Assembly: GCF_008831285.2 (NCBI RefSeq)
Contig: NC_045139.1
Span: 2,550,704 to 2,614,703, forward strand
DNA: 64,000 nt
Reading direction: 5' to 3'
DNA from: Nymphaea colorata
Taxonomy: Eukaryota > Streptophyta > Magnoliopsida > Nymphaeales > Nymphaeaceae
Positions 1,055-62,130 of this stretch are shown one piece after another (the first letter of the stretch is position 1; each line of letters starts with the position of its first letter). A program made the position numbers and the translations under genes. The notes beneath the pieces were generated by a model. That model searched no databases. It was not told the origin of the DNA and worked only from the letters and a program-made list of their open reading frames with translations.

Positions 1055-2954
1055 TATATATATATATATCATTTTTCTATCATAAGCAGCAATTTAATTA
1101 CATTCTTGACTTATTTGAAGTTGAGAGCCCTAATTAGTTGGTGCAGCTGAGGCAGGTGATCGGTGCTTCACTCTTGTACATTGTCATTCTTACAAAATGT
1201 ATGTTTTTTCTGTTTTTGGGCCTAGGAACTTGACAAGTTGGAAGAACTGGTACTCAGTCATTGTGAAAACCTCACCAGGTGTCCACTTTTTTCGAGCAAG
1301 ATGACACACTTACGGACATTGGATTTTGGAGGTTGTGCTAGGATGACTGAACTTGATCCATCTATTGGGCATCTCAAGAGCTTGACTGACCTGAATTTGT
1401 ACAACTGCAAATCACTAAAGGAACTGCCTCAAGAGGTTTCTCAGTTGACCTCACTTGTAAATCTTAACCTTACTGGTTGCTTCCAGATTTCAGCTCTGCC
1501 TGAATCCATGAGACACTTGAAGCAACTGAAGTGGCTGTATCTAAAGCGGTGTTCCTCGTTGACAGAAATATCTGAATGCATTTGTTCCTTTCTCAATCTT
1601 GAACTGCTAGATGCTTCACACTGTCAACATATTGCAGTTTTGCCAAACTGGATTGAAAAGCTTAAGAGCTTGATTGTGCTTGATTTGAGTTGGACAGCCA
1701 TTGAAGAGCTGCCACATTGCATTGTGTCTCTAGAGAACCTTAAGCGCCTATCAGTTTCTCATTGCCATGGGCTCAAGTTCTTGCCTTGGTTCCCACCTTC
1801 CCTCACCACACCCGAAGCAAGGGGCTGCGGAAAGCTTGAGGACGTTCCTGGCATTAAGCAGATGAAATTGTTACGAGGATTGGACCTTAGAGGATGTAGA
1901 AGCCTTGACGACTCATTCTTGGAAAGACTTCAGGTAAACATCTTGGAAAACCGTTGTTATGTCTTTTCGTCCATTGATAGGGGTAACTCTGAAGGTTACC
2001 AAATTAGTGGGAGTTGGGAGGTCACAATTTTAAAACCCAAACCTTGCAGCAAACAAGGTCAAAGTTACAAGATATTCTCTCTTCTTTGAAGAGTTTCCAC
2101 TCAATCAAAATGCACAACTTGGTCCTTTTTCTATAACTTCAATTGAGTAGACCGTTTAGTAGGCGGGAATGTAGAGCGTGTTTCTGAGAATTCCAATTGG
2201 TCTGACTGGGATTGTAAAGCAGAGCTTCGATTCAAAGATGTTTGTAAAAGTTAATGGAAGCTTATGAAGGTTCTGGCATTCGTTAGTGGCATCCCATCTA
2301 AGAAGGCATTCAGTTTCACCTTTATGGATATGTTTATGGCTTTATGCTTACTCACTAACCACGATATCTCCATCATCTGTTTTCTCCTCTGTTTTCCAGA
2401 AAGCAAACTTTCAAAATCTAGGAGATTTCTCCATCTCGTCATATCCACAGTCCCCCTCTTTCCTTCTTCCCAAGCAGTTCGAGACAGCCATCTTGTACTT
2501 GCATGTAGATAAAAGCAGCTTGGACAACATTTGCTCGGAACTAGACGAAAGTAATGGCTCGGAACTTGTTCATAAAAGCATTCCAAGCGATGGAGCTATA
2601 GACAGCCAGCCGGTCAGAGTTGTTTTGAAAGAGATAACGACAGGTGATGCTAAATTCCAGTTTTCAGCTTTAATTGGAATTCAATGGCACGGAACTAGTG
2701 AAGAGGAGGAATATAGGAAGTTGCCCACGGCTACATTTGGGAGGGATAGCGAGCTGATGAAGATGGCAACAGAAGGAGAATTTAAGAGAAATGACGACGC
2801 CCGGCAGAGGACGATGATGACCATGCGTGTGTCCATCGACGGCTGCGTCCTACTCCACGGTGATTTATTCACATATACGGAACATTGCGATCATTGGTTA
2901 TATCCCGATCCGATTGAAGCTGACGATAATTTTGTTATTGTGAAATTTGGTTGA
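1..2954 (+). CDS. TNL immune receptor, 3' part only (LRR plus C-terminal module)
   Basis: The gene enters from the left edge, so TIR and NB-ARC exons lie outside. Three exons are visible: 1-357, 1226-1933 and 2400-2954. All junctions have GT/AG and phase 0, giving about 539 residues without a stop. The first two exons are leucine-rich repeats of the TNL type, with units like LKSLTDLNLYNCKSLKELP about 23 residues long. The last exon carries the cluster's C-terminal module, with ITTGDAKFQFSALI and TMRVSIDGCVLLHGDL, and ends at TGA 2952-2954. In this family LRRs sense effectors or restrain the NB-ARC switch. The closest relative in the window is pseudogene F on the other strand, an inverted copy. 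No lesion was found here, so this copy may be functional if its 5' part is intact. Confidence 0.85.
552..715. mobile_element. MITE-like element 1 in TNL intron
   Basis: About 164 bp with imperfect terminal inverted repeats: GTGTTTGACTTTAGGAACAC near the left end matches the reverse complement of the right end near 692-714. It contains internal repeats of 'gattcatggaa' type. It has no coding capacity. The same element sits in the intron of copy F, so it predates the duplication. The superfamily was not determined. Confidence 0.6.
720..885. mobile_element. MITE-like element 2 in TNL intron
   Basis: It directly follows element 1. Left end GATCGTTTAGCAATAGTAAC pairs with the right end (ATTATTGTTGCCAAACATCTC reversed). 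Internal sequence includes the short palindrome gcctcaaaaaatgaggc. It is also present in the inverted copy near 61265-61430. Non-coding. Confidence 0.55.
1002..1069. repeat. (TA)n microsatellite
   Basis: Long TA dinucleotide run with one interruption, in the intron between the first two visible LRR exons. The inverted copy near 61140 has only a short TA tract at the same place, so this locus has expanded or contracted since duplication. Confidence 0.9.
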
Positions 2955-9429: not shown

Positions 9430-10615
9430 AATTGTCGCTCACTAAATAGCGAAAGAGTTGTCGGACTCCATCGTCTTACTAGAGAAGCTTGAGTTCCAAT
9501 CCATTGCTCATTGCTGTCGCCTCAGGTTCCCGCGAGCTTATGCTTCTGTTGCATCAAAAGAGCGATGGAATGTCACCAGCAGGTGCGGACCGAGGAAACT
9601 TCAGAAAATCTCCAATTGGAGAGCCTTCAAAGAGACGATACTACTCTTGCCTTCAGCTCCTCCTCCTCTCACTGAACTCTCCGCAACAGGTGGCCGTGAA
9701 TTAGAAACGATAGCAGATGTCTCAAATGCAAAGAGATTACGGGAATTGGATCTGAGCAGCTGCCAAAAATTTGTGGACGTTCCTTGCTCATGGAGGATGC
9801 AGAAGCCTCGCAGCTCACTGAGAAAAAGAGTCAAGGTGAATGGCATATTAACAAATGTTTTTGTGTCTATAGCCATTAGCTACTCTCCCTTCAACTGGTA
9901 GATGTAAATTGTGATTATCACAAACTTGTGGGTAGTCGTAATTGCAATCCAGCGGGGAAAATACCCGTCATACTCATGCATAGAAGCCTCAACATTAGCA
10001 TGATATCTACTCTGTTTTCCAGTTCTATCAGCTCATTAGACCTTGACATTCACAAGGGCATTTTCTATTTTCAGTCCACCAATGCCACTAGACAGATCTC
10101 TTTCCTTTGGTTTTTTGTTGCAAATCTATCATTTTTTTATATTTGTGTAAGTAATTTCCAACTCATTTTACTTTCTCTCATTTTTAGTTTTTTAAACCTT
10201 TTAAAATTTTATCGTATTTTTACCATATTATACTTAAAAAAAAACTAAACTAAACAGCAAGGAAGTTTTTTGTGACCATGGGAAGCCAGCCTTGACGGCA
10301 TCGTTGTTCATGTAGACATCCCTACAGATGACGCCCAGTTGCTGTTTCAAACCTCAATTCAATTCAGGGATCCATTTGATAACATCTGCGAACAACACGT
10401 CCCCAAAGTGGAACTTGGAGAGGGCATGGCGAGACGATGACGGTGGCGGGTGGAGGATCTGAATCTCACAGGAGGTCGATGATGCATGTTTCTGTCAATT
10501 GCTGGTGGTTACCTCAGGAGTCCAATCGATGGCGGATGTGATAATCATAATATGTGTGTTGATATGTCTTCTAGTGCCGCCGTCCGGCTGAATTTCGGTG
10601 GACCAATATAATATT
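9430..10615 (+). pseudogene. TNL C-terminal fragment (end of LRR plus module), broken
   Basis: The first piece (about 9430-9836) matches the end of the LRR exons: KELSDSIVLLEKLEFQSIAHC-like, then PPPLTELSATGGRELETIAD and LRELDLSSCQKFVDVP. Its frames are shifted relative to genes A and B. The second piece (about 10290-10615) matches the C-terminal module: VDIPTDDAQLLFQTSI and VPKVELGEG, then a stop, with SVNCWWLPQE-like and LNFGG remnants in other frames. No TIR, NB-ARC or earlier LRR precedes it. It lies upstream of gene A in the same orientation and is closest to A's 3' end, so it is probably the remnant of a tandem copy. Confidence 0.75.
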
Positions 10616-11931
10616 ATCATGGTCCTGCTACTGCTCCCTCTGTAGATTTCGGCTGATCAGCAAGAGCAGGGGAACATAAAGCTTGTGATTTTCTAGTCCT
10701 ACTACTCGTTCACTTACTTCTCTTGAGGATGTTTGCATTTCGGGAAAGAAGAAACCAGGCACAGCTTTTTGCCATTTCATTTTCTTATTTTCCTTGCTAT
10801 TCTTATATAATCAATTAGCTATGAAAGACTTGAGTGTCTTCTTCTCTTAATTTGTAAATGCAAATGAGAAAATGAGCAAAGGCTAGACAGGCACTCCAAA
10901 CGATTAAGCACGCATCACATGGACCAGTCGTTCTATTCAAAACCTACAGATAAGGCCTGTTTGGATGCCATCAAAATTGAGTTTAATGAAAGCCTAGTTT
11001 TGTAAAAGGAACTCAAAAAATTCGTTGGTTCCTTTAACTTTGATTTTATTGTTGGTCCCCGGTGAACTGAGGCTTATTTATTTTCGGGCTATGGGGTGCT
11101 GCTTGTATCTTGTCTACTCTTCCTTTGTGACATAGGCCTTGACTCTTTTATTATTTATTAACAGATTTATTTTTTTGAGTTGAGCTGCTGTCATCACATA
11201 AATTTCTAAAAATTAAGTGGATAAATTCATAGTCTTAGCTATACGAAATAATATTTTTTTGACGGGTAAATTTAGTCAAAGCTTCAAAACATGCTCAATT
11301 GAGAACTGACCCATATAACTTTTTTCTTTTTTTTTGTACCATTTTACAAAACTTGTGCAGCGCAAGGATGACACCCACTAAATCAAAATAAAAGCAACAT
11401 GAAAATGGATTAGTGTAGTTAACTAAGGAATTTAGAACCAGACGGTCTTTTTTTTTTAATTGATGCGCTTATCTTTATATTAGTAAATTATCATATATAT
11501 ATATATATATATTGTATTATATATGTTATAAATTATTTAATTTTCGTCATCCATACCTATTGCTTTTGCATGAATAAGATTATCTACACAGTAAAACCAC
11601 TTTTTTCTGGCGTTTTGCTTGTTTTCACATGTACATCATCTCAACTTGCTAAACCTATTGAGAAATAACGGAAAAAGAAGAGTCTAGGCAATAGGGTTCC
11701 AAGTTAGAACAAGAAACAAAGTTAGCTTCTAAAGCTAACTGCCTAACAGCATGATTTCCGAGATGATGGAAATTCAACCCAAGAACTGTTTCATGAAAAA
11801 ACAATGGAAAGGCACGGACATGAGCATAAGCCAAAGCCCTCTGCTCCTTCCATCTCGGACGGTGTCCAAGGTCACGAGAGCTATCGAGTGATTCACAGTT
11901 TCGTTGAAGCACCAAATTTGGCGTTGAGCGA
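10616..11931. other. Upstream spacer of TNL A
   Basis: Contains a TA tract near 11493-11512 and no gene. The TATA and leader sequence shared by B and C was not found here, so A's promoter is either different or too diverged to see. Confidence 0.4.
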
Positions 11932-14900
11932 ATGGGTCGAGAGATTGTACAGAGATTCTTGCCACCGGCTGCGATCGCCATCATCACGGCCATGACCTTC
12001 TTTTTCTGGTCCCATCAGTCCAGAAGGGCTAGAGTAAATTCGGAGAGGTCTGATTCGGACGACGGTAAGGATGATGCTTCGCCTCCACCGCCGGTGAGGG
12101 AAGACGGATTCCAGTATGATGTGTTTCTGAGCTTTAGGGGACCAGACACTCGCAAGGGCTTCACAGGCCATCTCTACCAAGCATTGAAAGAGAAGGGCAT
12201 AATCACTTTCATCGACAGTGAGACGCTGGAGAAGGGGCAAAATGTGGAGGAGCTATACGGGTGCATCGAGAGATCGAAAATCTTGGTGCCCATCTTCTCT
12301 AAAGGCTATGCTGATTCAAAGTGGTGTCTGAAGGAGATACACAAGATGGTAAAGTGCAATAGGCTGATCATACCGGTCTTCTTTGATGTGAATCCAAAAG
12401 TTGTCTGTCATCAAATTGGCTCTTTTGAACGTCCATTTAGGAGGTATCGTAAGAGTGAAGGAATAGACAAGGGGGAGGTAAGCAAATGGAGTGATGCTTT
12501 AAGAAGAGCAGGGAGAATCTCGGGGTATAATTTGGCTGATACTGAAGGGTGAGTTGCATAGTTCCTCATTCATTCTCATTAAGCAGCACTAAAATTCATA
12601 TACTAGTGAACTGGCAACTAAGAAGCACCGTCAATAGCCTTAGATGTGCTAATTTCTTTGAATGGCTTAAGATTGGCGATAACAAATAAGGTTAGTGTTC
12701 TCTATGTAAGCATTTTTCTTTCCTTTCGATCATACCCAGTATACATTCTTGCTTTTTTCACGTTCTTGGCAGAAACGAGGCAAAGCTTATCCTGCTCATT
12801 GTGAAGAGGATTCTGACTGAAGTGAGTAAAACCTCTCTATTTGTAGCTAAACATCCAGTAGGACTCAACTCTCGTATTGAAGACGTGGAAAAAATGCTTA
12901 ACGTTAAAGCCCAGGATGTCAGAATGGTCTGGATCCATGGGATGGGTGGCAGGGGCAAGACCACTCTTGCTAAGGCTGTCTATAACAAAATGTCTTCTCA
13001 TTTTGATGCTTGCGGCTTCATTCCTGACATCAGAGAAGTAGCAGAACGATCCTCCAAACTCGTTTCACTCCAAGAACAGCTGCTGTACGATGTTTTCAAA
13101 GAACTAAATGTGAAAGTAAACAGCATCAGTCAGGGAATTGGCATTATCAGTCGGCGACTTCAGATTACCAAGGTTCTGCTAGTTCTTGATGATGTTGATA
13201 ATGAATCACAACTCGATGCATTGGCTGGCAGCTTGAACTGGTTTCGCCCAGGGTCAAGAATCATCATTACTACCAGAAATAAGGGGCTGTTAAGGGAACC
13301 AAGAGCGAAGCAAAGTCATGTGTATGAGGTTAAGGAGCTTGACCCTGACCAATCACTCAAGCTTTTCAGCTGGCATGCATTTGGGACAGAGCAACCAGTT
13401 GAGGATTTTGCCGATCTTTCAAAGGAAGCTACATCTATTGCTGGTGGGCTGCCATTAGCCCTTGCCATCTTCGGGTCGCACTTCTTTGATCTGAAAACAG
13501 TCAAAGAATGGAGGGTTATGTTGGAAAGGTTGAAGGAAGATCAAGATAAAGAAATTCACCAAAGGTTGAGGATAAGTTTTGATGCACTTGATGCAAAAGA
13601 AAGGAAGGTATTTTTGGACATAGCATGCTTTTTCGTTGGGCTGGAAAGAGAGCTTCCAACTCTCATGTGGGAGGATTGCAGGTTCTTTCCAGACATATCA
13701 ATCAAAGTCTTAATGCACAAGTCTCTACTTAGTATAAATTATGATACCGGGAAGTTTGAAATGCATGAGCATATTAGAGATATGGGAAGAAAAATTGTGG
13801 AAGAGGAGAGCCTTTCAAATCCAGGAATGTATGGCAGGAGGTTGTGGAAAGAAGATGAGATACTAGATTTACTGCAAAAAGGAAGAGTAAGAGCACATCA
13901 TTTTCAATAATAACAATGATAATGATAACAATACTATTATTGTTATTAGTTTCATTTTTTTCGATTTCATTTTAATGATGTCCATGACTCTATTAGACTA
14001 CCCTCTGTTGCGAAACAATAAAACTAGTTGTTATTGTTCATCTGCTTTGGTTTGAAAATAGAGCACGTTGTGAGTAACTAGAACACCTAGGGAGCTTGTA
14101 TACTGTAGAACTGTGCTGGAAATATATAAGAAATATTTCTCATTATAAAAGAAACTCATTTTCTTTGGGTCTCAATCACTTTGAAATGCAGAGAGCGACA
14201 AATATTGAAGCCATCCAACTCTTTCGTGGAAATACCAGTTCAATGTCTGTGGACGCAGAGACTTTTGCCTCAATGTCTCAACTTAGAATGCTTCGATTGG
14301 GAAAGGTAACGTTGGAAGGTAAGTATGAACGTTTTCCCAAAAGGCTTAGATGGTTGCAATGGACTCTATGTGACTTGGATTCATTGCCTGGTGCCCTTCC
14401 TCTTGAGAATGTCATTGTTCTTGACTTATCTTGGAGCTCGATAACTCAAGTTTGGAACCGGCAAACATTTGCAGAGATCAAGGTAAAAGAAAAGTCTTCG
14501 GGTATATTGCCTTTTTGACTTCATCAATTTTGTTTATTAGCTACACGGGGTTATGTGGATCAACGTGATCGATATCCTTATATTGTGTGCATCATATCAG
14601 CCACAAAAGAATTTAGACACATAAGATTTTTTTTTTTTTTTTGGGAAGATAAATAGAAAGCCAATGCAAGTTAATGCATCAGTATTAAGATTGATTTCTC
14701 AAAATTTTCAGGAATTTGAGGATGAAAACATCAACACAAATCCCTTACAATGTTGCTAAGGGACACACACATTGCACATGGATATTGAATTTTTGACTTT
14801 CCTTTAGCTCGTGTAGATAGAAAGGTGAAGAAAACTTTACTTCTTTTTATGGGAATTGTTCTGATATTCTGATAAAACAATTTTTCCTTTAGGTCCTTGA

Positions 14901-17573
14901 CAAATTGAGAGTCCTAAAACTCAATGGTTGTTGGAATCTTGCTGTCTGTCCAAATTTTATAAGAATGCCACTTCTAGAGAAACTGGATTTTGAATATTGT
15001 GAGAGGATGAGAGAACTTGATCAATCTATTGGGCATCTCAAGAGCTTGACTCACTTGTCTTTGAGAGACTGTCATTCACTGGTGGAACTGCCTCAAGAAG
15101 TGTGGCAATTGATCTCACTTGAAATGCTTGACCTTACTCGTTGCTACCAAATTACAGCTCTGCCATCACTGTTTGGGGATTTAAAGCCATTGAAGCAGCT
15201 TTTGCTTGTCAAATTGAAGGTCCTCAATCTTCGTCATTGTCGGAACCTCACCATGTGTCCAGATTTTACAAGCATGCCACATATAGAGAAATTAGATTTT
15301 GGATATTGTCAAAAGATAACTGGACTTCATCCATCTATTGGGCTTCTCAAGAGCTTGACTCACTTGTCTTTGGGCTGGTGTGAATCACTAAAGGAACTGC
15401 CTGAAGAAGTTTGTCAATTGACCTCACTCCAAAAGCTTGACCTTAGTTGTTGCTCTCAAATTTCAACTCTGCCTATATCCATGAGAGACTTGAAGCAACT
15501 AAACTTGTTGTTTCTTGTGGGGTGTTCCTCGTTGGAAGAAGTACCTGAATGCATTTGTTCATTGCTCAATCTTCAAGTACTAAATTTTCGAGAGTGTCGT
15601 TCTCTTGCATCTTTACCCAACTCGATTGGCAACTTAAAGAGCTTGGAGATACTTGATTTGAGTTGCACAGCCATTGAAGAATTACCAGACTCCATTGCAT
15701 TGCTTGAGATGCTTGAGGTCCTATCAGTTGCTCATTGCAAAAGACTCAAATTCTTGCCAGCTTCTGCTCCTGTTGAGCCTTCAAAGAGACAAGACTACTC
15801 TCTCCCTCTGCTCCCGCCTTCCCTCACCGAACTCCATGCAGAAGGTTGTTATACTCTGGAAACAATTGCAGACGTCTCAAATACAAAGGGATTACTGGAA
15901 TTGGACCTAAGGGGCTGTGAAAGGCTTACGGACATTCCTGGCATTGAGAAACTGAATTGGTTAAAGAGCCTGAAGCTTGGAGGATGTAGAAGCCTTTCCA
16001 ATTCACTGAACAAAAACGTGCAGGTAAGTCTCATTTTCATGAATATGTTTTGTATCATGTCCATTAATTAGGTTCCCACCAATTATTAGCAGCACTAACA
16101 ACTTATGAATGTTACCTTCTCAACACTAAAAACCTTATCTACAGTATATTGAAATGAATGGTAATGATAGAGATATAATTTGTTTATCCATAAGATTATG
16201 TCTATTTTTTTTTTCTTTTTTCATACTTTTTACGGTTGCTTAGTTGAGACACCTACGGGGAAGGGCCTTCTTCATAGTTAAGGTTTTCCTTAGTCGTTGA
16301 GGCAGAAACATAAACTAGTCAGACAGTTCAGAAGGTGCAAGGAATTTGTTTCCATGCTTGGAAAAAGAATTTGCAGGTTGGGATGAGACGGTTCAGAAGT
16401 GTCATAACTAGTATGCAGCTGGTTGTAAGTTCAACGAGGAGCAAAACAGCTAGTACTTGTACGAGTGACATTCTTGAAGTATTAAAGGAACCTTGGACAT
16501 AAAGTTTTATGTTTTGACTTTTGAGAGCTTCAGTATAAATATGATGCATATATACCACATCAAGAGTGTATTTAAAAAAAAAAAAAATGGAGACGGTACT
16601 CGCAAGAAGGAATTTGTTATACACTTTATTTTAATTAAGATGAGCTCTGATGACTAAGCCTTATGAGGATAGCATTAACGAAAAATGCTCAAGCAACAAA
16701 ATCATAAGGTTGAGATTTGATTTAGGCTTTTCAACTTGACACACTTTACGTTCTTCTCTTGTTACCTACTTACTATCTCTGGTGGTATACTTTATAATTA
16801 AAACCATTATTTTCTGCTCAATAAATGGATTTTAGCTTTTGACTTACGCGAAATGGTTACACTTAACCAGTTCACTGCTTGTATGGCTGATCTAGTTAAG
16901 AAGCAGAGAAACCATTCTTGAGGTGGGAGACTTGTTGCACTAGTTAAACTTGCCCGTGCTTATGGTCACCTCTGCAATAGCGTACAATTGTACAAAGAGA
17001 TTCCATAGTCAATTAGTGTGATCTCTTTGCTCTGTATTTCAGGAGGCAAATTTTGAACACCTGGCTGATTTCTCCATTTCTGGGAACCTGAGCATTAGCG
17101 AGTCATCAGATGCACGCTCTCTCTACTTCTTTCTTCCCAAGTGGTTGGAGACAGGCAGCTTTTTCTTGAAACTAAATGAAAGTGAGCTTGACAGTGTCCT
17201 TGTTAATATAAACATCACGACAGATGATGCCCGGTTGCTCTTTCAAACTTCAATTCAGGCTAGACTTTGGCGACCTTATGATCACATCAACGAAAATCAG
17301 GTTCCCAAAGTGAAACTTGGAGAGTATGAAGAAATGATGATCGTGGCAGGTGGAGGAGGATTTGTGGGAAATAATGTTCGCAGGAGCTCGATGACGATGC
17401 ATGTGGCCATCAATGGCTGCCTCCTGCTCGACGGTTACCTCAGGAGTACCACCAATTGCACATTTGATGGTATGTATTTTGATGCATGTGATATCTCTTC
17501 AACTGCTGACATCAGGTATCATTATCATGGTCCTGCTGCTGCCCTCTTTCTGATTTCGTTTGGCCATGTGTAG
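11932..17573 (+). CDS. TNL immune receptor A, complete, with N-terminal hydrophobic anchor
   Basis: Five exons: 11932-12548, 12773-13886, 14192-14482, 14893-16023, 17043-17573. All have GT/AG sites and the frame stays open for 1227 aa. Residues 9-26 (FLPPAAIAIITAMTFFFW) form a hydrophobic segment followed by basic residues, suggesting a signal anchor. TIR is about 61-200: YDVFLSFRGPDTR, and E135 in WCLKE at the position of the TIR NADase glutamate. NB-ARC: P-loop GMGGRGKTT 262-270, LLVLDDVD 341-348, GLPLA 431-435. The MHD site reads MHE (536-538). LRRs fill exon 4 (675-1051). Exon 5 carries the C-terminal module (ITTDDARLLFQTSI, MTMHVAINGCLLLDGYL). In this family TIR makes NAD-derived signals after NB-ARC activation. 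The start is the first ATG of the TIR frame. An intracellular immune role is inferred from the family. Confidence 0.88.
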
Positions 17574-20549: not shown

Positions 20550-22580
20550 ATGGGTGGAGCCTTTTCACACTTTTGCTGCATCGATCTTTGTCAAGGTCTC
20601 ATGAAAAGGCTAAGGTCTCCACAATATTCCGAGAGGCTTGATTATGAAGGTGATGAAGCAGAGGCTCCTTCAAGATATTCCGAGAGGCTTGATTATGAGG
20701 GTGATGAAGCAGAGGCTTCTTCACCTCCGTCATCACCCCCACCTTCCATGAGAGAAAAGGGCTTCGAGTATGACGTGTTTCTGAGCTTCAGGGGACCAGA
20801 TACTCGAAACGGCTTCACCAGCCATCTCCATGCTGCTTTAGAAGTTAAGGGCATCCTGGCTTTCATCGACAGCCAGAACTTGGAGAAGGGGCAAAAGGTG
20901 GAGGAGCTGTTTGAGTGCATCCAAAAATCCAAAGTCTTTGTGCCCATCTTTTCCAAAGGCTATGCTGATTCTAAGTGGTGTTTAAAAGAAATAACCAAGA
21001 TCGTAGAGTGTAAAAGGCTCATCATACCAGTGTTCTTTGATGTGGAGCCAAAAGATGTCCGCCATCAAACTGGTCCTTTTGCTGATGCATTTAGATCCCA
21101 CCTTGAAAATGTTGACATAGACATGGAAGAGGTGTGCAAATGGAGTGCTGCTTTGACAGAAGCAGGGAAAGTCTCAGGGTACGATTTGGCGTCGACTTGT
21201 GGGTAAGTAGCTTAATTAGTTCCCGTCCTGTTGTTTTCTTTATGTGATTTGCAAATGAAATATTCAACACTTTTTTGATACTGAATGTAAATTGAAGTAA
21301 CCAACACACGTACATACACAAAGTTTTTCCCTATTGAGAGATATGGAGATGTAAGGTTCCCCCAATGTTTCTTTAAAGGGGAAAAAGTGCTTGAGGGGGA
21401 GTGATCAGGCAGAGTTCTCATACCAAGAGGTGGGGCCTTTTCACACTTGTGCTCCATCCATCTTTGGCAGCGTCTCATGAAAAGGCCACGGTGTGATGAA
21501 GCAGAGGCTTCTTCACGGCCTTCATCATCCTCATCACGGGCGAGGGAAGATGGGTTTGAGTGTGAGGGTGATGAAGCAGAGGCTTCTTCACCTCCGTCAT
21601 CATCCCCACCTTCCGTGAGAGAAGAGGAATTCAAGTATGACGTGTTTCTGAGCTTCAGGGACCAGACACTCGCAACGGCTTCACCGGCCACCTCCATGCT
21701 TTTTTAAACTTAAGGGCATCACTGTTTTTATCGACAGTGAGAACTTGGAGAAGGGGCAGATATAACCAAGATTGTGGAGTGTAAAAGGCTCATCACAGCA
21801 GTGTTCTTTGACGTGGAGCCAAGAGATGTTCAACATCAAACTGGCCCTTTTGCGCGTGCATTTAAAAGGCACCATAAAAATAACAAAATAGACAAGGAGG
21901 AGGTGAATAGATGGAGTGCTGCCTTGACAGAAGCAGGGGAAGCCTCAGGTTATACATTAGTACTGACACTCAGAAAGAGGAAATGAGTGTAAGAAGAACA
22001 ATTTACAGTTCAGATAAAAAAATTAGCAAGCCCCCAAGCAGGAAGGCTAATGTACAGCTCTGTGCATCGGAATGAGACTTATGTACATAATCTGATGTGG
22101 AATGTTGCCGTCTGCAATTTTGATCGTTGGGGCCATATTTCTGATGATTGGCAGCACGGAGGAAGATGACAGCACGGAGTTTCTGCATCCACTACATAAT
22201 CTTTTCCATTTCTTGTTGTTAGAAAAAACTCCTATGCGGGCGTTAGAGAAATTAATTTGGAGCAAGAATTGAGAGAGGGCTTGGATCAAAGGAAATCAGA
22301 CGGACTTGGATTTATCATCAAATCAGTCTATTTGAATTTATTTACATACTTGTTACTTTGGTTTTTTCTACTTTGACATTAGTTTTATGAATATGATATA
22401 TTTACAATCTTTGTCCTCAAACTTATGCTTGGCTTCACATCACTTTGTTTCCCATCACTTAAAGGGCTCAGTGCTTGCTTCGCCTTCGCCTCATTGCATT
22501 TAACAACATTATAGATAAATAAGGGCCGTCCAGTTTCTTTATTGGGAGCGCCTAGGTACCATCTGTGATATAAGTTGGTT

Positions 22581-22662
<82 letters not shown>

Positions 22663-23041
22663 TCAACCAGCTCTCAAGAGGGTCATTTACTCTATGGCAA
22701 TTGACCATTGAGACCAAAAAAGATAAAAATATATGAACTAATAAAATTGTTTATCACTATTTTGTTCTTGTTTTCCTCTCAATTGTTATTGTAGTAGATC
22801 TGGTGACTCTCATGAATAAACTGGGTAACTCTCAAAAGCTGGAGTCATAGTTCAATTCTGTCTGCAATGGTTTCTCACAACATGTAGCCTGATGCAATTG
22901 AGAGGCTGGCTGCATGGGCTATGGCTCCTCTCCCCCAATATTTTGAAGAAAAACATTTGCCACTTGTAATTTTGGATATTTAAATTAAGCTATTATAATA
23001 TTTCAAAAAATTAAAATAAATGTACATAACGGGAAGAGTGT

Positions 23042-23118
<77 letters not shown>

Positions 23119-26100: not shown

Positions 26101-28380
26101 AGTTGAAATTTAATGGTTGTAAGAAGATGAGTGAACTTCATCCATCTATTGGGCACCTCAAGAGCTTGAGTCGCTTGTCTTTGGGATGGTGTGAATCACT
26201 AATGGAACTGCCTGATGAAGTTTGTCAGTTGGCCTCATTGGAGAACCTTTATCTTAATTGTTGCAAACAAATTGCAATTTTGCCATCACATTTGGGGGAT
26301 CTAAAATCATTAGTGGAGCTATTCCTTGACAGCACCAGCATAACAACTCTGCCTGAATCTGTGGGACACTTGAAACAACTGAAGTATTTGTCTCTAAACG
26401 AGTGTTCTTCATTGAAAGAAATACCTGAATGCATTTGTGTGTTGCTTAATCTTGAAGAGATAGATGCTAAAAAGTGTGAATCTCTTGCCTCTTTACCCAA
26501 CTCGCTTGGCAACCTGAGGAGCTTGAGGAAGCTTGATTTGAGTGAGACAGCCATTGAAGAACTGCCAGACTCCTTTGTGTCACTAGAGAAGCTTGACGTC
26601 CTAGCAGTTGCTAAGTGCACTCAGCTCAAATTCATACCGGCCTCTGCTTCGACTTCTATTGTGTCTTCAGATAGACAACACTACTCCCTCCCTCAGTTCC
26701 CGCCTTTCCTCACCAAATTAAACGCGTCCAACTGCCCTGAATTGGAAATGATAGCAGATGTCTCAAATGCAAAGGGATTGAAAAAATTGAATCTTAATGG
26801 CTGCCAAAAGCTTGTGGATGTTCCTGGCGTCGAACAGCTGAAACGATTGGTGACGTTAAAGCTTGGAGGATGCAGAAGCCTTTGTAACTCATTGAAGGGA
26901 AGACTTCAGGTAAACATCTTTGAGAAAAGTAACGTTATGTCTCTTAGCCCATTAGCTTCGCTCCACTTACTTAGTAGGGGTGACTTGTGAAGGTTATCAA
27001 TAAGCAGTTTAAAACCCGACTGGGACAAGTATGCTATGTCTCTCGGGCCTTCAGCCCTTTAGCTTAGCTCCACTCACTTGGTAGGGGAGATTTATTGACA
27101 AACAACCGAGACGTCTTAGGTTCAAAACTAATACATGTCTCTTTCTTCATTAGCTTAGCTCCACTCTTTTGGTAGGAGCAACTTGTTAAGGGTTAACAAA
27201 TTGCTAAGACATCACAAGTTCAAAACCTGACCTTTGTCGAAGGTAGTCTCTAGTTTGGGAAGCGTTTCTACTCAACAGCATGCATATAGCATTCCTTTCT
27301 TAACTTTTGTTGGCTAGAGTTTCTAGGGATCATGCTGGAACGTAGTGCGTGTTCCTGGAAAGAGAAATGGTTCTGATTCAAATCGGAAAGCAAAGGTTTG
27401 TCAAAGATGCTTGCAAAAATTAATGGACACATGGGATGCAGATTAGTGCCTACCTTGTGTTTTTTCATTCCAAATGCGAGTGCAACTACTTGAGTTGGTG
27501 AGAAGATCCAGAACCATTTTCTTGAAACTGAGGGGAAGGAAAATCCCTTGAGCTGGTTCTGTGTCTGCCAAAGAGTGCACCACACTTACTGTAACTGTCT
27601 CCCTTTCAGGAGGCAAATTTTCAACATCTGCATAAATTCAACATTCGCGGAAACCCGAGCGATGGCGAGCCGTCATGTCCTCAATCTCTCTCTTTCGTTC
27701 TTCCCAGACAGTTCAACATAGGCTTCTTGTACTTGTATGTTGAAGAGAGCTGTCTAGGCAACATTGGCTCAGAACATTGGGCACATAAGCTCATAGCCAA
27801 CCTTCACTCAAATGGCAACAAAAGCACTGAAAACGAGGAAGATCATAACCACAGCATTGGCTCGATAGCAAATAGGAGCATTGAAAGTCGTGACGAAGGT
27901 GACAACCTGGATAAAAGCATCGCAAGTGGTGAAGGTAGAAGCCTGGACGGCACTAGCTCGGAACAAGATGAAAACAACGAAAGTGATGAAGATAGCAGCA
28001 TGGACAGCTTTGAAGAAGAAGAAGATAAATGCGTTGAAAGTGACGAAGACACTCTCTCGGTAGACAGCCTGGGCAAAGTTGTTCGAATAGACATCACGAC
28101 AGACGCTGCACAATTTGTCTTTAAAACTTCAATTGAAAAGGGCCTATATGGCAGGTCCCCCAACGCTATGTTTGGATGGAAGAGCAAGCTGATGAGGATA
28201 GCAAGAGAAGGAAAATTTATGGGAGCTGATGATGCTCCAAGGAGGACGACGATGGTGATGCATGTGTCCGTCAATGGCTGCGCCCTACTTGGTGGTGACC
28301 TCCAGACTGTTAGTGGGGAAGCCATAGATGGTCCTTCTTCTCTTGATGTGTTTTTTCAGTCCGTATCGTTGAACATGTAG
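20550..28380 (+). CDS. TNL immune receptor B, complete, with myristoylation-like start and acidic tail
   Basis: Five exons: 20550-21202, 23510-24623, 24784-25107, 25563-26909, 27610-28380; 1402 aa. It uses the same phases as gene A. The start MGGAFSHFCC has Gly2, Ser6 and Cys9/Cys10, as in N-myristoylated and palmitoylated proteins. An acidic 17-residue unit is repeated before the TIR (about 71-210; E147 in WCLKE). NB-ARC: P-loop GLGGVGKTT 275-283, LLVLDDV 355-361, GLPLA 445-449, MHD 550-552. The LRR exon spans 698-1146. The last exon has LSFVLPRQFNIGFLYLYVEE, an Asp/Glu/Ser-rich linker of roughly 100 residues, then IDITTDAAQFVFKTSI and TTMVMHVSVNGCALLGGDL. All signature motifs are intact. 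Intron 1 (2.3 kb) contains a second, broken TIR exon, so alternative 5' splicing is possible. Confidence 0.88.
20625..20726 (+). repeat. 51-bp in-frame tandem duplication in exon 1 of TNL B
   Basis: Units 20625-20675 and 20676-20726 encode YSERLDYEGDEAEAPSR and YSERLDYEGDEAEASSP. The repeat lengthens the acidic spacer between the N-terminal tether and the TIR domain. Confidence 0.9.
21420..21986 (+). pseudogene. Second TIR exon, broken, inside intron 1 of TNL B
   Basis: It matches exon 1 of B including the leader (cacacttgtgctccatccat) and spacer (GDEAEASSPPSSSPPSVRE). The ATG position reads AGA. The frame shifts just after YDVFLSFR, where one G of 'aggggacca' is missing. About 107 bp are deleted at 21760, removing the segment up to WCLKEI and with it the catalytic glutamate. 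The end (KRLITAVFFDVEPRDVQHQT through WSAALTEAGEASGY) is recognisable. It is a tandem copy of the TIR exon in the same orientation. Whether it is ever spliced into transcripts cannot be told. Confidence 0.85.
22584..22659. repeat. (CA)n(TA)n microsatellite
   Basis: CA run to about 22629, then a TA run, in intron 1 of TNL B. Confidence 0.9.
23041..23115. repeat. (TA)n(GA)n microsatellite
   Basis: TA run followed by GA run in intron 1 of TNL B, about 400 bp before the NB-ARC exon. Confidence 0.9.
26951..27230 (+). repeat. Three tandem tRNA-like (SINE-head-like) repeats in intron 4 of TNL B
   Basis: Copies near 26951-27020, 27059-27130 and 27150-27230 each read ttagcttagctccactc, ttggtagg(g/a)g, then about 40 bp later (g/a)gttcaaaac. 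These resemble a Pol III A box and B box (GGTTCRAAACC) at tRNA-like spacing. Diverged single copies follow the LRR donor sites of the left TNL (395-465, 1965-2045) and of F. The tRNA origin is an inference. Confidence 0.4.
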
Positions 28381-31300: not shown

Positions 31301-33200
31301 CTGGGAGCTAAATTTGGTTTCAAAGCTTCCAGTTGAAACTCTTCTCTGTGTTTTTTTTTCCTTCATTTATTATCATTTACTTGTCAGAAGGTGAACTCTG
31401 TTACTGTGATTTTTTTTGTCCAAATATTCAGCAAATGACAATAATTTCCTTTTTCTTGGTGTGAGAATCTGACATGATTCATGCAAACTCCCCGTCAGGG
31501 CCTTATAAATTGTCTTGCTTTGTTGCAGAATCTAATTGAAGTTCTATGTTCAGTTGTTCACCTTCTCGCCCCTAGAGACAATATTTAGATTCTCGTGGTC
31601 AGGGCTAGCAACAACAACCCGGGATCAAAGCGAAGAAGCTTGAAGAAGCTCATTCCTAGTTTATGGATCGGAACGGAAAGCTGGTTTTCCAATTAATTTA
31701 TTTTCACTATGTGATTCTTGGGTGATAACACAATAGTTTCTCAACCTTCTTTTACTATTACAATCTTTTTTGAACTGCTTATTTATTCCGTCGATCAGAT
31801 CACATAGATTGAAGTTCGAAACAGCAACTGGGCATCATCTGTCGCCATGTTTTCGTCCACAAACAAGGCTGCCGTCAAGGCCGATTTCATCCATCTTCAA
31901 GCACAAGTTGCCATTCCGGAACAACTAATTGGGAAGAAAGCAAGGAAGAGATCATGGATCTGACGACTGACCGACATTCCTCTTCAGGGATGGAGAAGTG
32001 ATCGGTCGGCCATTGAAAGTTTGCCTCCAGAAAAACAGGGTAAAGAGGTGCAGTCGCCATATGTTGAGCTGAATTGACAAAAGGGCGGCGCCATATTAGG
32101 TTGATAAGGTGGAAAACGTTAGTAGTCATTATCATTGATGACCAAGTTCACTGATTGATGATGAACTGGCCCAACCTTGAACAACAGCTATAAAGCTACT
32201 AAACTTTGGACGAAGTTACAAATATGAATTCTTTGCACACGGGCCTCACTAATTAATCATAGACTCAGGATCAATTTGGAAAATCCTACTACAGTTGACA
32301 TATTTTTCTGAATTCATGTGGCTAATTCATTTTTCCAATAGCTGTAAGCAAGCATTATTAGCTCGAGAAAGCTGTAAGCTCGAAAAAATAATGTCTAAAA
32401 AGCATCTCATGCTTCCTTATGAGTCTTGCCATCACATATAGGCTCTAATAAAACATTCGTAATTGATACCTTATCCATAAACAATGTTTTCCTGCTTTAG
32501 TCATCTATTTTTTCTTAGCTTCCTCATTAGTAGGAATTTTTGCATCTAATTCTTATTCTACATCGGGCAAAAATGTGACTTCATACATTATTTCCAATAT
32601 CCATAATTACTATTGTTTAGCTTTTTAATGTTACTTAATGCATTTTCTAATGCTTTTATAATCTCAGGATATAATGACAGTCAACAAGTACAGTAAGTCA
32701 GACAAACTCACAGGTGAATCTGGATTTATCCTTGGATTAAACCCACTCTGAAACCAAATGCACAAAACTTTGGGCCTAGATATGCTTAAATGCCAGTGCC
32801 TATAAAATTCAAATCCATATGTGGAGAAAATCTGGCACAAACTCGATAAACCTTTTTTTTTTTTTAATAACAAACTAATAGAAGTTTTCTTTAATTGAAA
32901 TTTAAGAGCTGAACCGAAATAATCTCACAGAGTGAACTCATAACAAAGCTTACTTATTGAGCGTGACCGGCAGTTCACACTCGACCAAAAGGAGAAACTC
33001 ATTCACTTGATGCACCCACATCTCACTTGACACTCTACTTAAGACACCATACACTAAGGACTCATGCCCTATTCATACAGGAATGAGAATGTCGGTGATA
33101 TATTTCCACCGCATTCTACAACTTTAACAATTTTTTTTCTTTTGTTTTCCATATAGCACACAGCTTAGGAAAAACAAGAGACTCGAGCTATCTAGAAAGT
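28381..33200. other. Intergenic spacer between TNL B and TNL C
   Basis: About 4.8 kb. It holds the GC-rich-ended element at 29525-29835 and a dispersed-type repeat near 30690-30960. A short frame near 31845 (MFSSTNKAAVKADFIHLQAQ) has no recognisable family. Nothing else supported. Confidence 0.5.
29525..29835. mobile_element. Non-autonomous element with GC-rich ends and AT core
   Basis: The ends are rich in CGGGCC/GGGCCC words (for example gggctcggcccagcccg on the left, cgggccgggccgagccc on the right) and partly complementary. The core is nearly pure AT. It has no coding capacity. The composition break against the flanks is sharp. Exact ends, target duplication and superfamily are undetermined. 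Confidence 0.5.
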
Positions 33201-34384
33201 GGGTGATGACTCTTTACATCTTTTATCTTGGTCCCGTTTCAACCTTTCCAACACAACTTTCCATTCTTCGTTGTTTTCAAATGAAAGAAATGCGACCCAA
33301 ATATTCTGAGGGTTAATGGCAGCCCAGCAGCAACCGATGCAACTTCCCTTGAAAGCTCAGCGAATTCCTCGGCTGGTTCCTCTGTCCCAAATGCATGCCA
33401 ACAGAAAAGCTGAAGTGATTGGGTGGCATCCAGCCCCCCAAGCTCATATACATTATTTATCTCCACTTTTGGTGCTCCCAATATTTGCCTATCTCTAGTA
33501 GTATTGATGATTCTTGACCCTGAGCAAAACCAATCTAGGCTGCCGACCAGTGCATCGAGTTGTGATTCATGATCAAGGTCATCGAGAACTAGCAAAACCT
33601 TTTTGCTCTGAATTCTTTCTTTAAATTTGTGCATTCCATCACTGGTGCTGCTTATGTCCATATTTTCAACTTTGAAAACATCACGAAGTAGTTGTTTCTG
33701 AAGGGAAATGAGACCCGAGGGTTGCTTTGCTGCTTCTCTGATGTTAACAATGAAGCTGCAGGCATCAAAGATTTGGTTATAAACAGCCTTAGCAAGAGTT
33801 GTCTTGCCTATTCCACCCATGCCATGGATCCCAACTATTCTGGCATCATCCTGGGCTTCAATGTCCAGCACTTCCATTAAATCTGCAATACGAGAATCGA
33901 GTCCTACTGCATGTTTAGCTGCAAACAGAGGGGTCTTCTTTACTTCTGTCAAGATCCCCTTCACGACACATTGGACGAGCTCTACCACGTCTCTACCGAA
34001 AGGCCAAAAAAATGCAAGTCAAGGTAATCAATGCTTTGTGCTTCTGCTCATACAATAATTGGCAATAATGTGTATGTTTTTTTGGGTCATTTTATATACT
34101 TTGAAAACAGGGGCATCACATCTTCATGGTTGGTTATAGAAAGAAAACGAAAAGAATGCATGTTTGTCATGTTTAATATGTGTACACTCTAATTTGGATC
34201 TCACAAACCAAGCAGTTTGACACACTATCAAATGATGTAGATGTATGCTGAACAATACTTGGTTTTTTTTTTAAATAAGAAAGCAAGGACACAGGCTGCA
34301 ACACATTAACTGCTTTTTTGCCATTGATTGACAAGCTGATTGCCACTAATTCATCCTCTCTCTCTCTCTCCTTTTTACTATACG

Positions 34385-36786: not shown

Positions 36787-36854
36787 TCTCCTGGCTCCAC
36801 ATCAAAGAACACCGGTATGATCTCCTGGCTCCACATCAAAGAACACCGGTATGA
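36787..36854 (-). repeat. Perfect 34-bp tandem duplication in the TIR exon of TNL C
   Basis: Units 36787-36820 and 36821-36854 are identical (begin tctcctggctcc, end ccggtatga). Removing one unit restores the reading frame, so this is a single clean inactivating event. Confidence 0.95.
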
Positions 36855-41852: not shown

Positions 41853-44610
41853 CTAACCAAAATTCACCAGAACGATTGGATGTTCAGAATCAGAAAGAAA
41901 ATAGTTGTATGAGTTGCTGATGTCACCACCGATTAAGACACTGCCATTGATGGAAGCAAGCATAATCATCATCCCCCGAGCCTGTCCTGCAAATCTTCCT
42001 TGTCTTACCATCGTCATCAGCTCGCTATTCCAATCGAAAGTAGCCTCAGGGCGTCTATATCCTCTTTCAATCAAAGTTGTGAAGGTAAATTGGGCATCAG
42101 CTGTCATGACATCTATTTGGAGGACCCTGCCCAGGAGCCCCGCGCCTTTATCCAGTTTCAAGCCACTGTTGTCCTCGCCGCTTTTAATTCTCTCATCTAG
42201 TCCCGAGCTAATATCTTCGCTGCTTTCAAGGCTGAGGATGCCCATATCTTCGCCACTTTCATAGGTGAGAACGCTCTCATCTTCATTACTTTCAAAGCAT
42301 GCATCTACTTCCGCTCCAACGCTGTCCAGGTCACTATCTTGTCCACTTAAGGTTTCTATGTCAACGCTATCTCTGTCACTTGCATTCCCTTCATTTGACT
42401 CCTGTTGCGAGCCAAGAACATTCCCTTCATTTTATTCGTGTTGCGAGCCAAGAACATACGGGTTTCTGTCTCCCTCACCAATGCTATCTTTGCCACTTGC
42501 AATACCTTCTAGTAGCTTTTTGTCTTCGTCACTTTCGATGCTTTTATCTAGTTCGAAGCCCTTGTTGTCTATGCTGCTTTCATCTACAATCAGATATAAA
42601 TACAAGGAGGCCCACCTAAATTGATTGGGAAAAGGAAAAGAGACACCTTGTGAATATGACGGCTCGACGTAGATCAAGGTCCCAGCGATGGAGAATTCAC
42701 TTAGACGTCCAATGTTTGCCCCCTGAAAAATAGAACGAGTAGGTACCATAGTGAGCCAACTAGTCAAATTTTCTGCATGACTATAATCTCTAGTTAGCTA
42801 AAGTTGAAGAGAAAAGAACTCTATTTACATTCAGTAAAGAGATAGCATATTTTTTTCCTTGAAAGAAGTTGTTTACCTGAAGTCTTTCTTGGAATGAGTC
42901 ATGAAGGCTTCTACATCCTCCGAGCACTAATTTTACCAATCGTTTCAACTTCTCGATGCCAGGAACGTCCACAAGTTTTCTGCAGTTTTCTAGATCCAAT
43001 TTCTGCAGCCCCCCTGCATTTGAGACATCTGCTATCATTTCCAGTTGATGACAGTCTTGTGCATAGAGCTTGGTGAGGGAAGGAGGGAATTGAGGGAAAG
43101 AGTAGTGTTGTCTCTCTGAAGATTTTTCATCACCACTTGATGACACAACATGGCTCTTCAACAACATCAATGATCCAACAGTTGCAGAAGCCGGCAAGAA
43201 TTTGAGCCTTTTGCAACGAATAACTGATAGGACCTTTAGCTTCTGTAGTGAGACAATGGAGTCTGGCAACTCTTCAATGGCTGTCAAACTCAGATTAAGC
43301 CGCCACAAGCTCTTCATGTTGCCAAGAAAGGTGGGCAAAGATGCAAGACATTTACAGCCGCCAGCGTCTAGTACTTCAAGATTGAACAATGAACATACGC
43401 AATCATGTATTTCTTTCAATGAGTGACAACCCTTTAGAATTAACGACTTCAGTTGCTTCATTTGCCCCATGGATCCGGGCAAACCCCTTAGTGATTTACA
43501 TTTTTTCAAAGACAAGTGTGTCAACCTCTTGAGATGCCCAATTGATGGATGAAGTTCACTCAACTTAACACATTTTTCGAAATCCAAAGTCTTTAAATGT
43601 GGTATGCTTGAAAAATCTGGACACATCGTGAGATTCTTACAGTTACAAAAATTTAGGACTTTCAATTTGTCAAGCGTCAATGACTTTAAAACTCCCAATT
43701 GTGACGGCAAAGCTGCAATGTTGTAGCAATTGGTAAGGTCAAGCTCTTTGAGAGAAGTCAATTGCCAAACTTCTTCAGGTAGTTCCTTTAGTGATTCACA
43801 GCCCCTCAGTTGCAAGTTAGTCAACCCCTTGAGACGCCCAATAAATGGATGAAGTTCAACCATTTGCTTGCAGCCATTAAATTGCAATTTCTTTAAATGT
43901 GGCATACTCATCAAATCTGGACAAAGCCTGAGGTTCTTACAATACCTAAGTTTTAGCACTTCCAAATTTTCAAGCGAGTTCTCCTTCAATGACTTAGAAT
44001 CCCCTTGTTGTGATGGCAAACTTATAATTTGAGAGCAATGAGTGAGGTCAAGCTTTTTTAGTGATGACAATCGACAAACTTCTTGAGGCAATTCCCTTAG
44101 TGATTTGCGGTGCTTCAAAGACAAGTAAGTCAGACTCTTCAGATGTCCAATAGATGAATGAAGTTCACTCATCTTCTCACAATATCCACAGTCCAATGTC
44201 TCTAGACTTGGCATGCTCGTAAAATCTGGACACATGGTGAGCTTGGAACAATCATTGAGATATAAGACTTTCAATTTCTCAAGCAAGGGCTGCTCCACTG
44301 CCCTTGAATCCCCCAATTTCTTTGGCAAAGTTGTAAGTTGGTAGCACCCACTGAGGTTAAGAATTTCGAGTGAGGTCAACTGACAAAATTCATCAGGCAG
44401 TTTCTTAAGTGCTGTATGACTCAAAGACAAGTTAATCAAGCTCTTGAGATGCCCCATAGTTGGATGAAGTTCAGTCATCTTATGACAACCCCCAAAGTTC
44501 AATATTTGAAGATGTGGCATGCTCGTAAAATTTGGACAAATGGTGAAATTGTGGCAATTATGGAGACTTAAAAATTCCAATTTCTCTAGCAAGAGAGGAG
44601 AGACCTGTGC
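41853..44610 (-). pseudogene. TNL D: LRR plus C-terminal module, lacking TIR and NB-ARC
   Basis: LRR exon from about 44610 to 42877 and last exon 42722-41853, with matching donor and acceptor and no stop in the LRR exon. It holds about 20 LRR units such as LKSLTYLSLKHRKSLRELP. The last exon has the module (IDVMTADAQFTFTTLI, MIMLASINGSVLIGGDI, ending IVLVNFG). One nonsense codon (TAA, 42432-42434) interrupts the acidic linker; the frame is otherwise open. Upstream, the frame runs into repeat-derived sequence (44610-44754) with no ATG; the first in-frame ATG is inside the LRRs (44520). No TIR, NB-ARC or linker exon exists before the copia element. It could yield an LRR-only decoy, but a dead fragment is more likely. 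Confidence 0.8.
42384..42455 (-). repeat. 36-bp in-frame tandem repeat carrying the stop codon of TNL D
   Basis: Units 42420-42455 (VLGSQHE, stop, NEGN) and 42384-42419 (VLGSQQESNEGN) differ by few bases. The stop is TAA in one unit where the other has TCA. A single substitution therefore ends the frame. Confidence 0.85.
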
Positions 44611-46573: not shown

Positions 46574-46636
46574 GGTTGTTAACTTTGCAACCGGAGCAAA
46601 TGTCTCATGATAATCAAGGCCCTCTAGTTGAGTGTA

Positions 46637-47344: not shown

Positions 47345-47365
47345 ATCATATACCCGATACCCTTT

Positions 47366-59196: not shown

Positions 59197-62130
59197 CCAG
59201 TTCCACACCAGCTAAATACTACAGGCAAGATTCAGCTAAAATATTGACAAAAAATTATGAATATAACACATGCAAACTTAAGTCTGGAAGGAATAACCAC
59301 AAAGCACACACATTTAAATATTTTTATTTTTAGCAGCGTGAAATAAGGTATATACATGAAGGCAATAGCATGTGCATACAGGCCCAATACCCATCGTCAT
59401 ATCCTCCTCTCTAAACGTACTCAAGGGGCTATGCGTTGTATATCGCCCAATATTCCAGCGTATATCAGACTTCAAGAGCTCAATGCCAAGAATGTGATCC
59501 ACAAGCTTTTGGCAGCCACTTGGATCCAATTCGTATCCTTTGACTTTTCCAGTTCTGGGCTTTATGTTATGTTGGCTTGCTCTTAAGATGGCCAATCAAA
59601 TTCCACAATAACAAAATTATCGTCAGCTCCAATCGGATCGGGATTGAACCCATGAAATCGATGAAGAATTGTTGCAGATCTTGAAAATTTGCTTCCTGGA
59701 AAGTAGAATACGGATACATCGTGGTTAGTGAGTAAGCATAAATATATCGATATAGGTGAAGCCAAATGCCATATTAGATGGGAATCCACTAGCTAATGCC
59801 AGGACCTCCATAAGCTTCAGATGCGCATACCATGTCCATTGTCAAAAGCTAGAAGTTGGATGAACTAGTTGGTTGACACAACTCAGTCCCTTGGAATCTT
59901 AACAAAATTGCGGAGGATTTTGTCAACAATTCAACTAGCTTCACTAGCATTGGATAAGAAAAAAAAAAGACAATGGTAAGGAGTCATTCTCAACACCACA
60001 AGCATCCACTAACTTTTACAAACATATTTGAATCTAAGCTTAGCTTTACAATCCCAGTCAGAACAATAGGAATTCTCAGAAACACCCTCTGCATTCCCGC
60101 ATGACTAAAAGGTCTACTCAATTGAAAGAGAATATCTTGTAACTTTGACCTTGTTTGCTGCAAGGTTCGGGTTTTGAGCTTGTGACCTCCCACTAATTTG
60201 GTAACCTTTAGAGTTACCCCTATCAAGGGACGAAAGACATAACAAAGGTTTTCCAAGATGTTTACCTGAAGTCTTTCCAAGAATGAGTCTTCAAGGCTTC
60301 TACATCCTCGAAGTTGCAATCTCCGTGACAATTTCATCTGCATAATGCCAGGAACGTCCCCAAGCTTTCCGCAGCCCCTTGCTTCGGGTGTGGTGAGGGA
60401 AAGTGGGAACCAAGGCAAGAACTTAAGCCGATAGCAATGAGAAACTGATAGGAACTTAAGGTTCTCTAGCGACACAATGGAATGTGGCAGCTCTTCAATG
60501 GCTGTCCAACTCAAATCAAGCTCAAACAGGCTCTCAAGCTTTTCAATCCAGTTTGGCAAAAATGCAATACATTGACAGTGTGAAGCATCTAGTTTTCCAA
60601 GATTGAGAAAATAACAAATGCATTCAGGTATTTCTGTCAACGAGGAACACCGCTGTAGAGACAGCCAGTTCAGTTGCTTCAAGTGTCTCACGGGTTCAGG
60701 CAGAGCAGAAATCTGGTAGCAGCCAGTAAGGTCAAGCCTTATGAGTGAGGTCAATTGAGAAACTTCTTGAGGCAGTTCCTTCACTGATTTGCAGTTTCTC
60801 AAAATCAGGTCAGTCAAGTTCTTGAGATGCCCAAAAGATGGATCAAGTTTAGTCATCTTAGCACAGTCTCCAAAATCCAATCTATGTAAGTGTGTCATAT
60901 TGCTTGAAAAGAGTGGACATGTGATGAGGTTTTCACAATTATAGAGTTCTAGTTCTTCCAATTTGTCAAGGTCATATGCCCAAGAAGAGAAAAAGCATGC
61001 ATTTTGTAAGAATAAAATGACAATGTACCAGAATGAAGCACCGATCACCTGCCTCAACTGCATCAACTAATTAAGGCTCTCAACCTCAAATAAGTCAAGA
61101 ATGTAATTGAATTACTGCTTATGTTGGCAAAATGAAAAAAATATATATATACAATTGTCATTTAAAGTCTTGTGGATCATAAATAAATTATATCCCCATC
61201 CGTAAGATTCACTTTAATATATTGCAGGCAACGTTTTTAGTGTTGATGCTTGTAAAAATTTGTATACTTAGGCGCTGTTTGGCAACTGTAATACATTGTT
61301 ATTATTTCATAAACGTATCCAAAAAAATATGGTGGATTTATGAAACACATTGTGTTATAATGTTTTTTGAATTTCTTCATTTTTTGAGGCACATTCAAAG
61401 GACACTAATGCTAAACGATATCTTATGGACCGTTTGGCATTAGCAACACTACATAAGGTTACATAAAACTGCCTAGATTTGTAAAACTCTTAAACAAGTG
61501 TTCTATGAATCTGCTCTTATTTTAGGGTAGATCCATGAAACACTCACATGATGTTCCTAAAGCCAAACACCGACCTCTTAAGGTTAAGTTATAACGTGAA
61601 AGAAATAGAGAGATCACTTTCCCTAGTGGGCTGCATCTATCTTCATTTTTTCAATCCCACGAGTTCTGAAATTTTGAGTTGCCACTAATTTGATAAATTT
61701 CAAAAGTTTCCCCTACCAAGAGAGCGGAAATCAGTTGACGGGGGAAGTGGCATGCCATAATTTGTTTACTTGAATGCCAAGAACATTGACAAGCCTTTTG
61801 CAGTACCTTAGATCCAATTTCTGTAATCCCTTTAGCCTTGAGACATCTGGGATGACTTTTAATTGTTCGCAATCGTAGAGGATAAGCTCTTTGAGTGAGG
61901 TCAATTGACAGACTGCTTCAGGCAGTTCCATCAATGACTCACGGCCCCACAAAGACAAGCGAGCCAATCACTTAGAATTCCCCAGTTGTGATGGCAAAAC
62001 AGTAATTTGAGCACAATCACTAAGGTTAAGCATTTTGAGTGAGGTCAAATTTTCAATTTACTAGAGGCAGTTCTTTTAGTGATCGAGTAGTAATGCAAAT
62101 TCAAGTCAATCAAGCTCTTGAAAAGCTCAA
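59185..62130 (-). repeat. Right arm of the large inverted segmental duplication
   Basis: Reverse complement of 1-3335 with small indels. Includes the 3' flank with its LRR relic, the last exon (internally deleted), both LRR exons, and the intron with twin MITEs. Confidence 0.85.

Follow-up and report, generated by a model that had tools for sequence, protein, structure and literature searches.

The last exon of TNL receptor genes in the water lily Nymphaea colorata belongs to a widespread post-LRR domain family, probably a very divergent occupant of the C-JID slot

The last exon of the TNL receptor genes (encoding TIR, NB-ARC and leucine-rich repeat, LRR, domains) clustered in a 64-kb window of Nymphaea colorata belongs to a real, widespread post-LRR domain family that lies outside current Pfam models. 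The window, meaning the whole stretch of DNA that was analysed, is located on the contig labelled C2, and we searched it together with an assembly of 407,766,735 bases in 783 contigs. We consider it likely that this exon, represented by exon 5 of the gene that we call B, encodes a lineage-specific domain that is a very divergent occupant of the slot held in eudicot TNLs by the post-LRR (PL) domain, or C-JID.

The last exon in the window

Two genes of the cluster, B and C, could be modelled as five exons joined by GT-AG introns and open end to end. The spliced B model (11932-17573, plus strand, 1227 amino acids) comprises a TIR exon (11932-12548), an NB-ARC exon (12773-13886), an NLL exon (14192-14482) and an LRR exon (14893-16023), followed by an intron (16024-17042) and the last exon at 17043..17573, which encodes 176 amino acids plus the stop. 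The spliced C model (20550-28380, plus strand, 1402 amino acids) has exons 1-4 at 20550-21202, 23510-24623, 24784-25107 and 25563-26909 and a last exon of 256 amino acids at 27610..28380. Both models are predicted from the sequence, and some exon joins have alternatives; the end of exon 3 in B was set by hand and checked afterwards by the open spliced model, other joins being possible. The B exons match TIR (E = 2e-33), NB-ARC (2.4e-32), WHD_ROQ1 (2.4e-16) and LRR_14 (2.8e-29), and B is a TNL, with TIR, NB-ARC and LRR in order within one open, modelled gene. The exons measure 617, 1114, 291, 1131 and 531 base pairs (bp) in B and 653, 1114, 324, 1347 and 771 bp in C, while the mean TIR, NB, NLL, LRR and PL exons reported for peach TNLs, 108 of 195 of which have this five-exon order, are 523, 1038, 286, 906 and 578 bp long (PMC4851768). 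Since the exon order and lengths of B and C match the peach plan, the last exon sits in the published PL slot.

A first-pass annotation of the window had claimed that the last exon recurs in every TNL of the cluster. The translations show the blocks that it named, and tblastn of the last exons against each other links the copies (C-E, E = 7e-31; A-C, 2e-17 in the second half and 4e-9 in the first; B-D, 4e-15; B-A, 3e-13; B-C, 7e-13). Leave-one-out profiles of A, B, C and E, scored after the linkers of C and E had been removed, lay 42-75 standard deviations above shuffles, and none of the 60 shuffles attained any of these scores. Besides B and C, the exon was found in A (2400..2954, plus strand, 184 amino acids), downstream of an LRR match at 1226-1951, and in E (41853..42722, minus strand), which has one in-frame stop at 42432-42434 and an LRR match at 42877-44625. 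D (10282..10635, plus strand) is a broken copy with three in-frame stops; in G, a deleted remnant at 59598..59695 (minus strand; tblastn match 59663-59598) keeps only the start and the tail; and F retains 21 amino acids of the middle block at 31807..31869 (minus strand; tblastn E = 0.007), a piece absent from the earlier list. The exon is present whole, broken or as a remnant in the TNL units of the window. Its copies had also been described as otherwise decayed, which does not fit the open five-exon models of B and C; in E the one stop falls within the linker, D is broken and G and F are remnants.

The domain is most easily read in family members that have no linker (L021, L023, L026, L028, L029, L031 and others), where it forms a single unit of ~120 amino acids with an opening F..L..F.ISG(S), a block LSF.LPK..., a second block V.I.V.....F.T and then F.E.DE....G....M/V.V....G..GG. 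In the window copies, an acidic, serine-rich linker sits between the first two blocks and, on the sequences compared, is an optional insert: there is none in B and D, and it measures ~33 amino acids in A, ~109 in C and ~150, counting the stop, in E. The variable linker that was part of the block order proposed earlier is missing from B and D. The proposed end near VSFG or VNFG is seen in E (VNFG), is altered in A (VKFG) and B (ISFGHV) and is lost in C. In linker-free members elsewhere in the genome the two blocks form a single compact unit, so the "second added block" once suggested for a divergent C-JID is not supported; the underlying choice, a divergent C-JID or a lineage-specific domain, is still the best reading. 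The tight core TM.MHVSINGC.LL had been taken to imply constraint. It does hold the best 19 columns, yet 3130 of 5000 column shuffles contain an equally good 19-column stretch, and we rejected the idea that the core is exceptional. In L031, an acidic stretch follows the domain and does not lie between the blocks.

Distribution across the assembly

The genome search with the B exon as query returned 24 matches (E ≤ 10), of which 20 had E < 0.02; since five exons were matched twice, these stand for 19 places. L021, a member on contig C11, gave 10 matches with 5 new places, and L031, on C7, gave 15 matches with 9 new places. When L022 and L044 are left out (weak matches whose translations have no visible domain) and E, which the genome searches missed, is counted from tblastn within the window, the family totals 32 places, some of them fragments, on six large contigs (C2, C4, C7, C9, C11 and C12). 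Twenty-five of these have a match at E < 0.01 from one search or more; the seven weaker ones (L024, L043, L045-L049) were included on the opening motif as judged by eye. The L021 query reached B at E = 0.005 only and the C4 member L010 at 1e-8. An LRR end lies upstream of the exon in 18 of the 21 loci checked, A, B and C included (the exceptions are L005, L017 and L024), with a GT directly at the LRR end in 17 of these 18, and the frame is open over the last exon in many paralogues. L031, L043, L049 and other loci found with the L031 query, on C7, C12 and C2, make the family more diverse than the window cluster. On C2, a large TIR/TNL cluster at ~1.69-3.79 Mb surrounds the window and holds most of the strongest TIR matches listed.

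Ratios of nonsynonymous to synonymous substitution (dN/dS) were obtained as pairwise Nei-Gojobori estimates, which are rough at such divergence. The last exons of A, B, C and E share 32-48% identity within the window, at dN/dS of 0.55-1.00, compared with 64-68% and 0.26-0.42 for TIR, 58-66% and 0.27-0.46 for NB-ARC, and 54-60% and 0.43-0.86 for LRR with the close pair A-G set aside. The set of copies differs between domains in this comparison, and B-C is the sole pair common to all; in this pair, the last exon has 38% identity and dN/dS of 1.00, as against 68% and 0.26 in TIR, 58% and 0.37 in NB-ARC, and 60% and 0.53 in LRR. The last exon is the least conserved part of the window genes. Elsewhere, three C11 copies have dN/dS of 0.34-0.40, and from these pairwise estimates the C11 subfamily looks to be under purifying selection. 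The C2 pairs tested range over 0.44-1.41, with 0.44-0.50 for B against L003 and L002.

Relation to C-JID

The C-JID or PL domain of eudicot TNLs (PF20160; RPP1, 7CRB; ROQ1, 7JLU; N; peach PL) likewise has its own last exon directly after the LRR, is close in length (531 bp in B and 771 bp in C against the peach mean of 578 bp) and combines low sequence conservation with variable inserts between conserved blocks. In RPP1 and ROQ1, it is reported to be a beta-sandwich of 8 and 9 strands, respectively, whose loops touch the effector together with the LRR, and the 33-residue NR loop between strands 3 and 4 of ROQ1 binds the XopQ active site (PMC8813719). The water-lily exon differs in having no PF20160 match and no PxWF, GxAxCxV or CG signature, and in its optional acidic insert of 0 to ~150 amino acids. 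From the same slot, the high divergence and the variable insert between blocks, a C-JID-like role appears to be the best inference.

If so, the domain would fold as a small beta-sandwich packed on the end of the LRR, and its variable loops, the acidic insert between the first two blocks included, would help the LRR to hold a pathogen effector as in RPP1 and ROQ1; after effector binding, the TIR domains would assemble and signal. Alternatively, the domain may help to hold the receptor off. The RPS4 C-JID is reported to contribute to the inactive state, and deleting or mutating conserved C-JID sequences in RPS4 and N abolishes the triggering of cell death (PMC8813719).

Several results weigh against this relationship. 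PF20160, which scores 51 bits on an unverified RPP1 sequence and 115 bits on an unverified N sequence, matches at E ≤ 10 none of the 18 and none of the 20 family members in two overlapping sets (A4 and A5), and it finds nothing across the 408-Mb genome, in a search without a positive control of its own. The PxWF (PL-1), GxAxCxV (PL-2) and CG signatures are absent by inspection of the A4 and 24-member alignments, as is the His motif, and the partial likenesses are limited to a PGS-like start (FSIPGS in L003) and the MHVxxxG(C)xL block. PDB searches, whether with one exon or with profiles of 6, 18 and 20 members, returned chance matches or none, and no C-JID chain, while hhalign of the family against a C-JID set gave a probability below 1%. 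On RPP1, a 24-member profile was marginal, with 48 of 1000 shuffles scoring at least as high; on N, 206 of 1000 did so, and ROQ1 was not reported. With a 4-member profile, none of RPP1, ROQ1 and N showed a signal. On an unverified eudicot post-LRR sequence, 0 of 1000 shuffles scored as high as the 24-member profile, but strings from that sequence were not found in print and it gives no signal with the 4-member or 17-member profile. In the profile control, RPP1 barely detects ROQ1 or N, and the ROQ1-N pair is detected. AlphaFold models of the last exons (six rows each) had a mean pLDDT of 33 for B and 34 for A; they are strand-rich and unusable as folds, and Foldseek with the low-confidence A model returned 13 chance matches. 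Finally, the dN/dS of the last exon in the window overlaps that of the LRR, and the values of 1.41 for L016-L017 and 0.93 for A-L009 also fit relaxed constraint in the C2 cluster. AlphaFold thus gives no proof of the fold, and homology to C-JID is plausible but unproven.

The searches led to no other known domain either. Pfam matches none of A, B, C, both E pieces or the 18 and 20 family members, as the first reading of the window had supposed, and none of the searches run produced a significant match to C-JID or any other named domain over the full length. An NCBIfam search gave no lead, and a prokaryote genome scan with C gave 7 pattern matches and no relative. In the accessible parts of the open-licence literature searched, the post-LRR family of these TNLs is not named.

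An unrelated domain with its own fold could instead have been captured in the lineage, spread through its TNLs and replaced C-JID in the last-exon slot, as a lineage-wide integrated domain. The lack of detectable C-JID, Pfam or PDB similarity, with 17-24-member profiles and member-by-member scans, and the 0 Pfam C-JID matches in the genome against at least 151 TIR matches speak for such a capture, which we regard as unlikely. The post-LRR regions of TNL #1, a conserved TNL lineage, are reported to be missed by Pfam, yet their AlphaFold models are C-JID-like sandwiches (PMC9806590). TNL #1 shares with the water-lily genes a Pfam-unrecognised post-LRR extension, but it occurs in 1-4 copies per genome and is reportedly missing from Nymphaeales, whereas the water-lily family is large, clustered and without a usable model. 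Flax L6 reportedly lacks a PL domain (PMC4851768), whereas the water-lily genes fill the slot with an exon. Across 305 angiosperm genomes surveyed with PF20160 as the definition, C-JID is reported from eudicots alone (PMC12787737); according to a motif search, Amborella has complete PL motifs and Ginkgo a few partial ones, while conifers have none (PMC6691002). For Euryale ferox, an NBS-LRR survey lists 73 TNL genes and four integrated domains in nine of them, and its accessible text does not describe the water-lily family (PMC9140740).

We think it improbable that the exon is a decaying tail, that is, a former post-LRR domain now largely dispensable in the cluster and drifting. The window dN/dS of 0.55-1.00 and the 1.41 reached by one close C2 pair, the remnants and the stop in several copies, and the loss of the common end motif in C are consistent with decay; however, the frame is open in two five-exon models and in many paralogues, dN/dS falls to 0.34-0.40 among the C11 copies and to 0.44-0.50 when B is compared with L003 and L002, and 17 of 18 loci have a GT donor at the LRR end. 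It is very improbable that the acidic serine-rich linker is the working part, as a disordered decoy or docking stretch with the flanking blocks as mere carriers, for although the ~109- and ~150-amino-acid linkers of C and E contain 27-28% aspartate plus glutamate and 33- and 36-bp tandem repeats account for part of that of E (a tandem-repeat search of the C linker found none), the linker is absent in B and D, short in A and unseen in C11 and other divergent members, where the flanking blocks persist.

Beyond the divergent occupant of the C-JID slot that we favour for this exon, we offer tentatively, at somewhat less than an even chance, the broader proposal that TNLs of the lineage have a post-LRR domain of their own, either a homologue of C-JID or a replacement for it, which is common in the last-exon slot and escapes PF20160. 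If this is true, the post-LRR slot would predate the eudicot C-JID and be structurally broader than it, or would have been filled independently. That PF20160 has no match in a genome with at least 25 family places in the PL slot suggests that surveys relying on such models count too few of these receptor parts. The C7 and C11 members without a linker and the linker-bearing ones on C2 would provide a ready comparison for the diversification of effector-contacting tails.

Other features of the cluster

The best PDB matches for the TIR exon of B are flax L6 (E = 1.5e-35) and L7 (4.2e-35), the closest solved TIR domains. Ahead of its TIR, B begins with a hydrophobic segment, AAIAIITAMTFFFWS, followed by basic residues (11968-12012, plus strand), a signal-anchor-like start that can be set beside the signal segment reported for L6 (PMC4851768). 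The start of the TIR exon of F (36805-37359, minus strand) resembles it, and the N-terminus of C is less hydrophobic. In C, the region ahead of the TIR (20550-20750, plus strand) contains a short tandem duplication with YSERLDYEGDEAEA twice, and modelled intron 1 (21203-23509) contains a decayed second copy of the TIR exon at 21429-21968 (plus strand), 48% identical and with three stops.

A TIR match 2.6-3.0 kb to the left of the window is, from its position, probably part of A, and another on the minus strand 1.3 kb to its right is probably part of G by the same reasoning. G is a close paralogue of A, with an LRR that is 80% identical (dN/dS 0.79). In the span between E and G, no NB-ARC exon was matched for the E unit and the sole TIR match is a 24-amino-acid piece at 58720-58649 (minus strand). 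A broken copia-type element (45500-49633, minus strand; RVT_2, integrase and gag-pre-integrase) lies 5' of the LRR exon of E, at the place expected for its NB-ARC exon. An RVT_1-type, LINE-like reverse transcriptase (34459-35157, plus strand) lies between the NB-ARC exon (33242-34018, minus strand) and the TIR exon of the broken TNL F, and a fragment of a ZIP zinc transporter is found at 53326-53622 (plus strand) within the TNL cluster.
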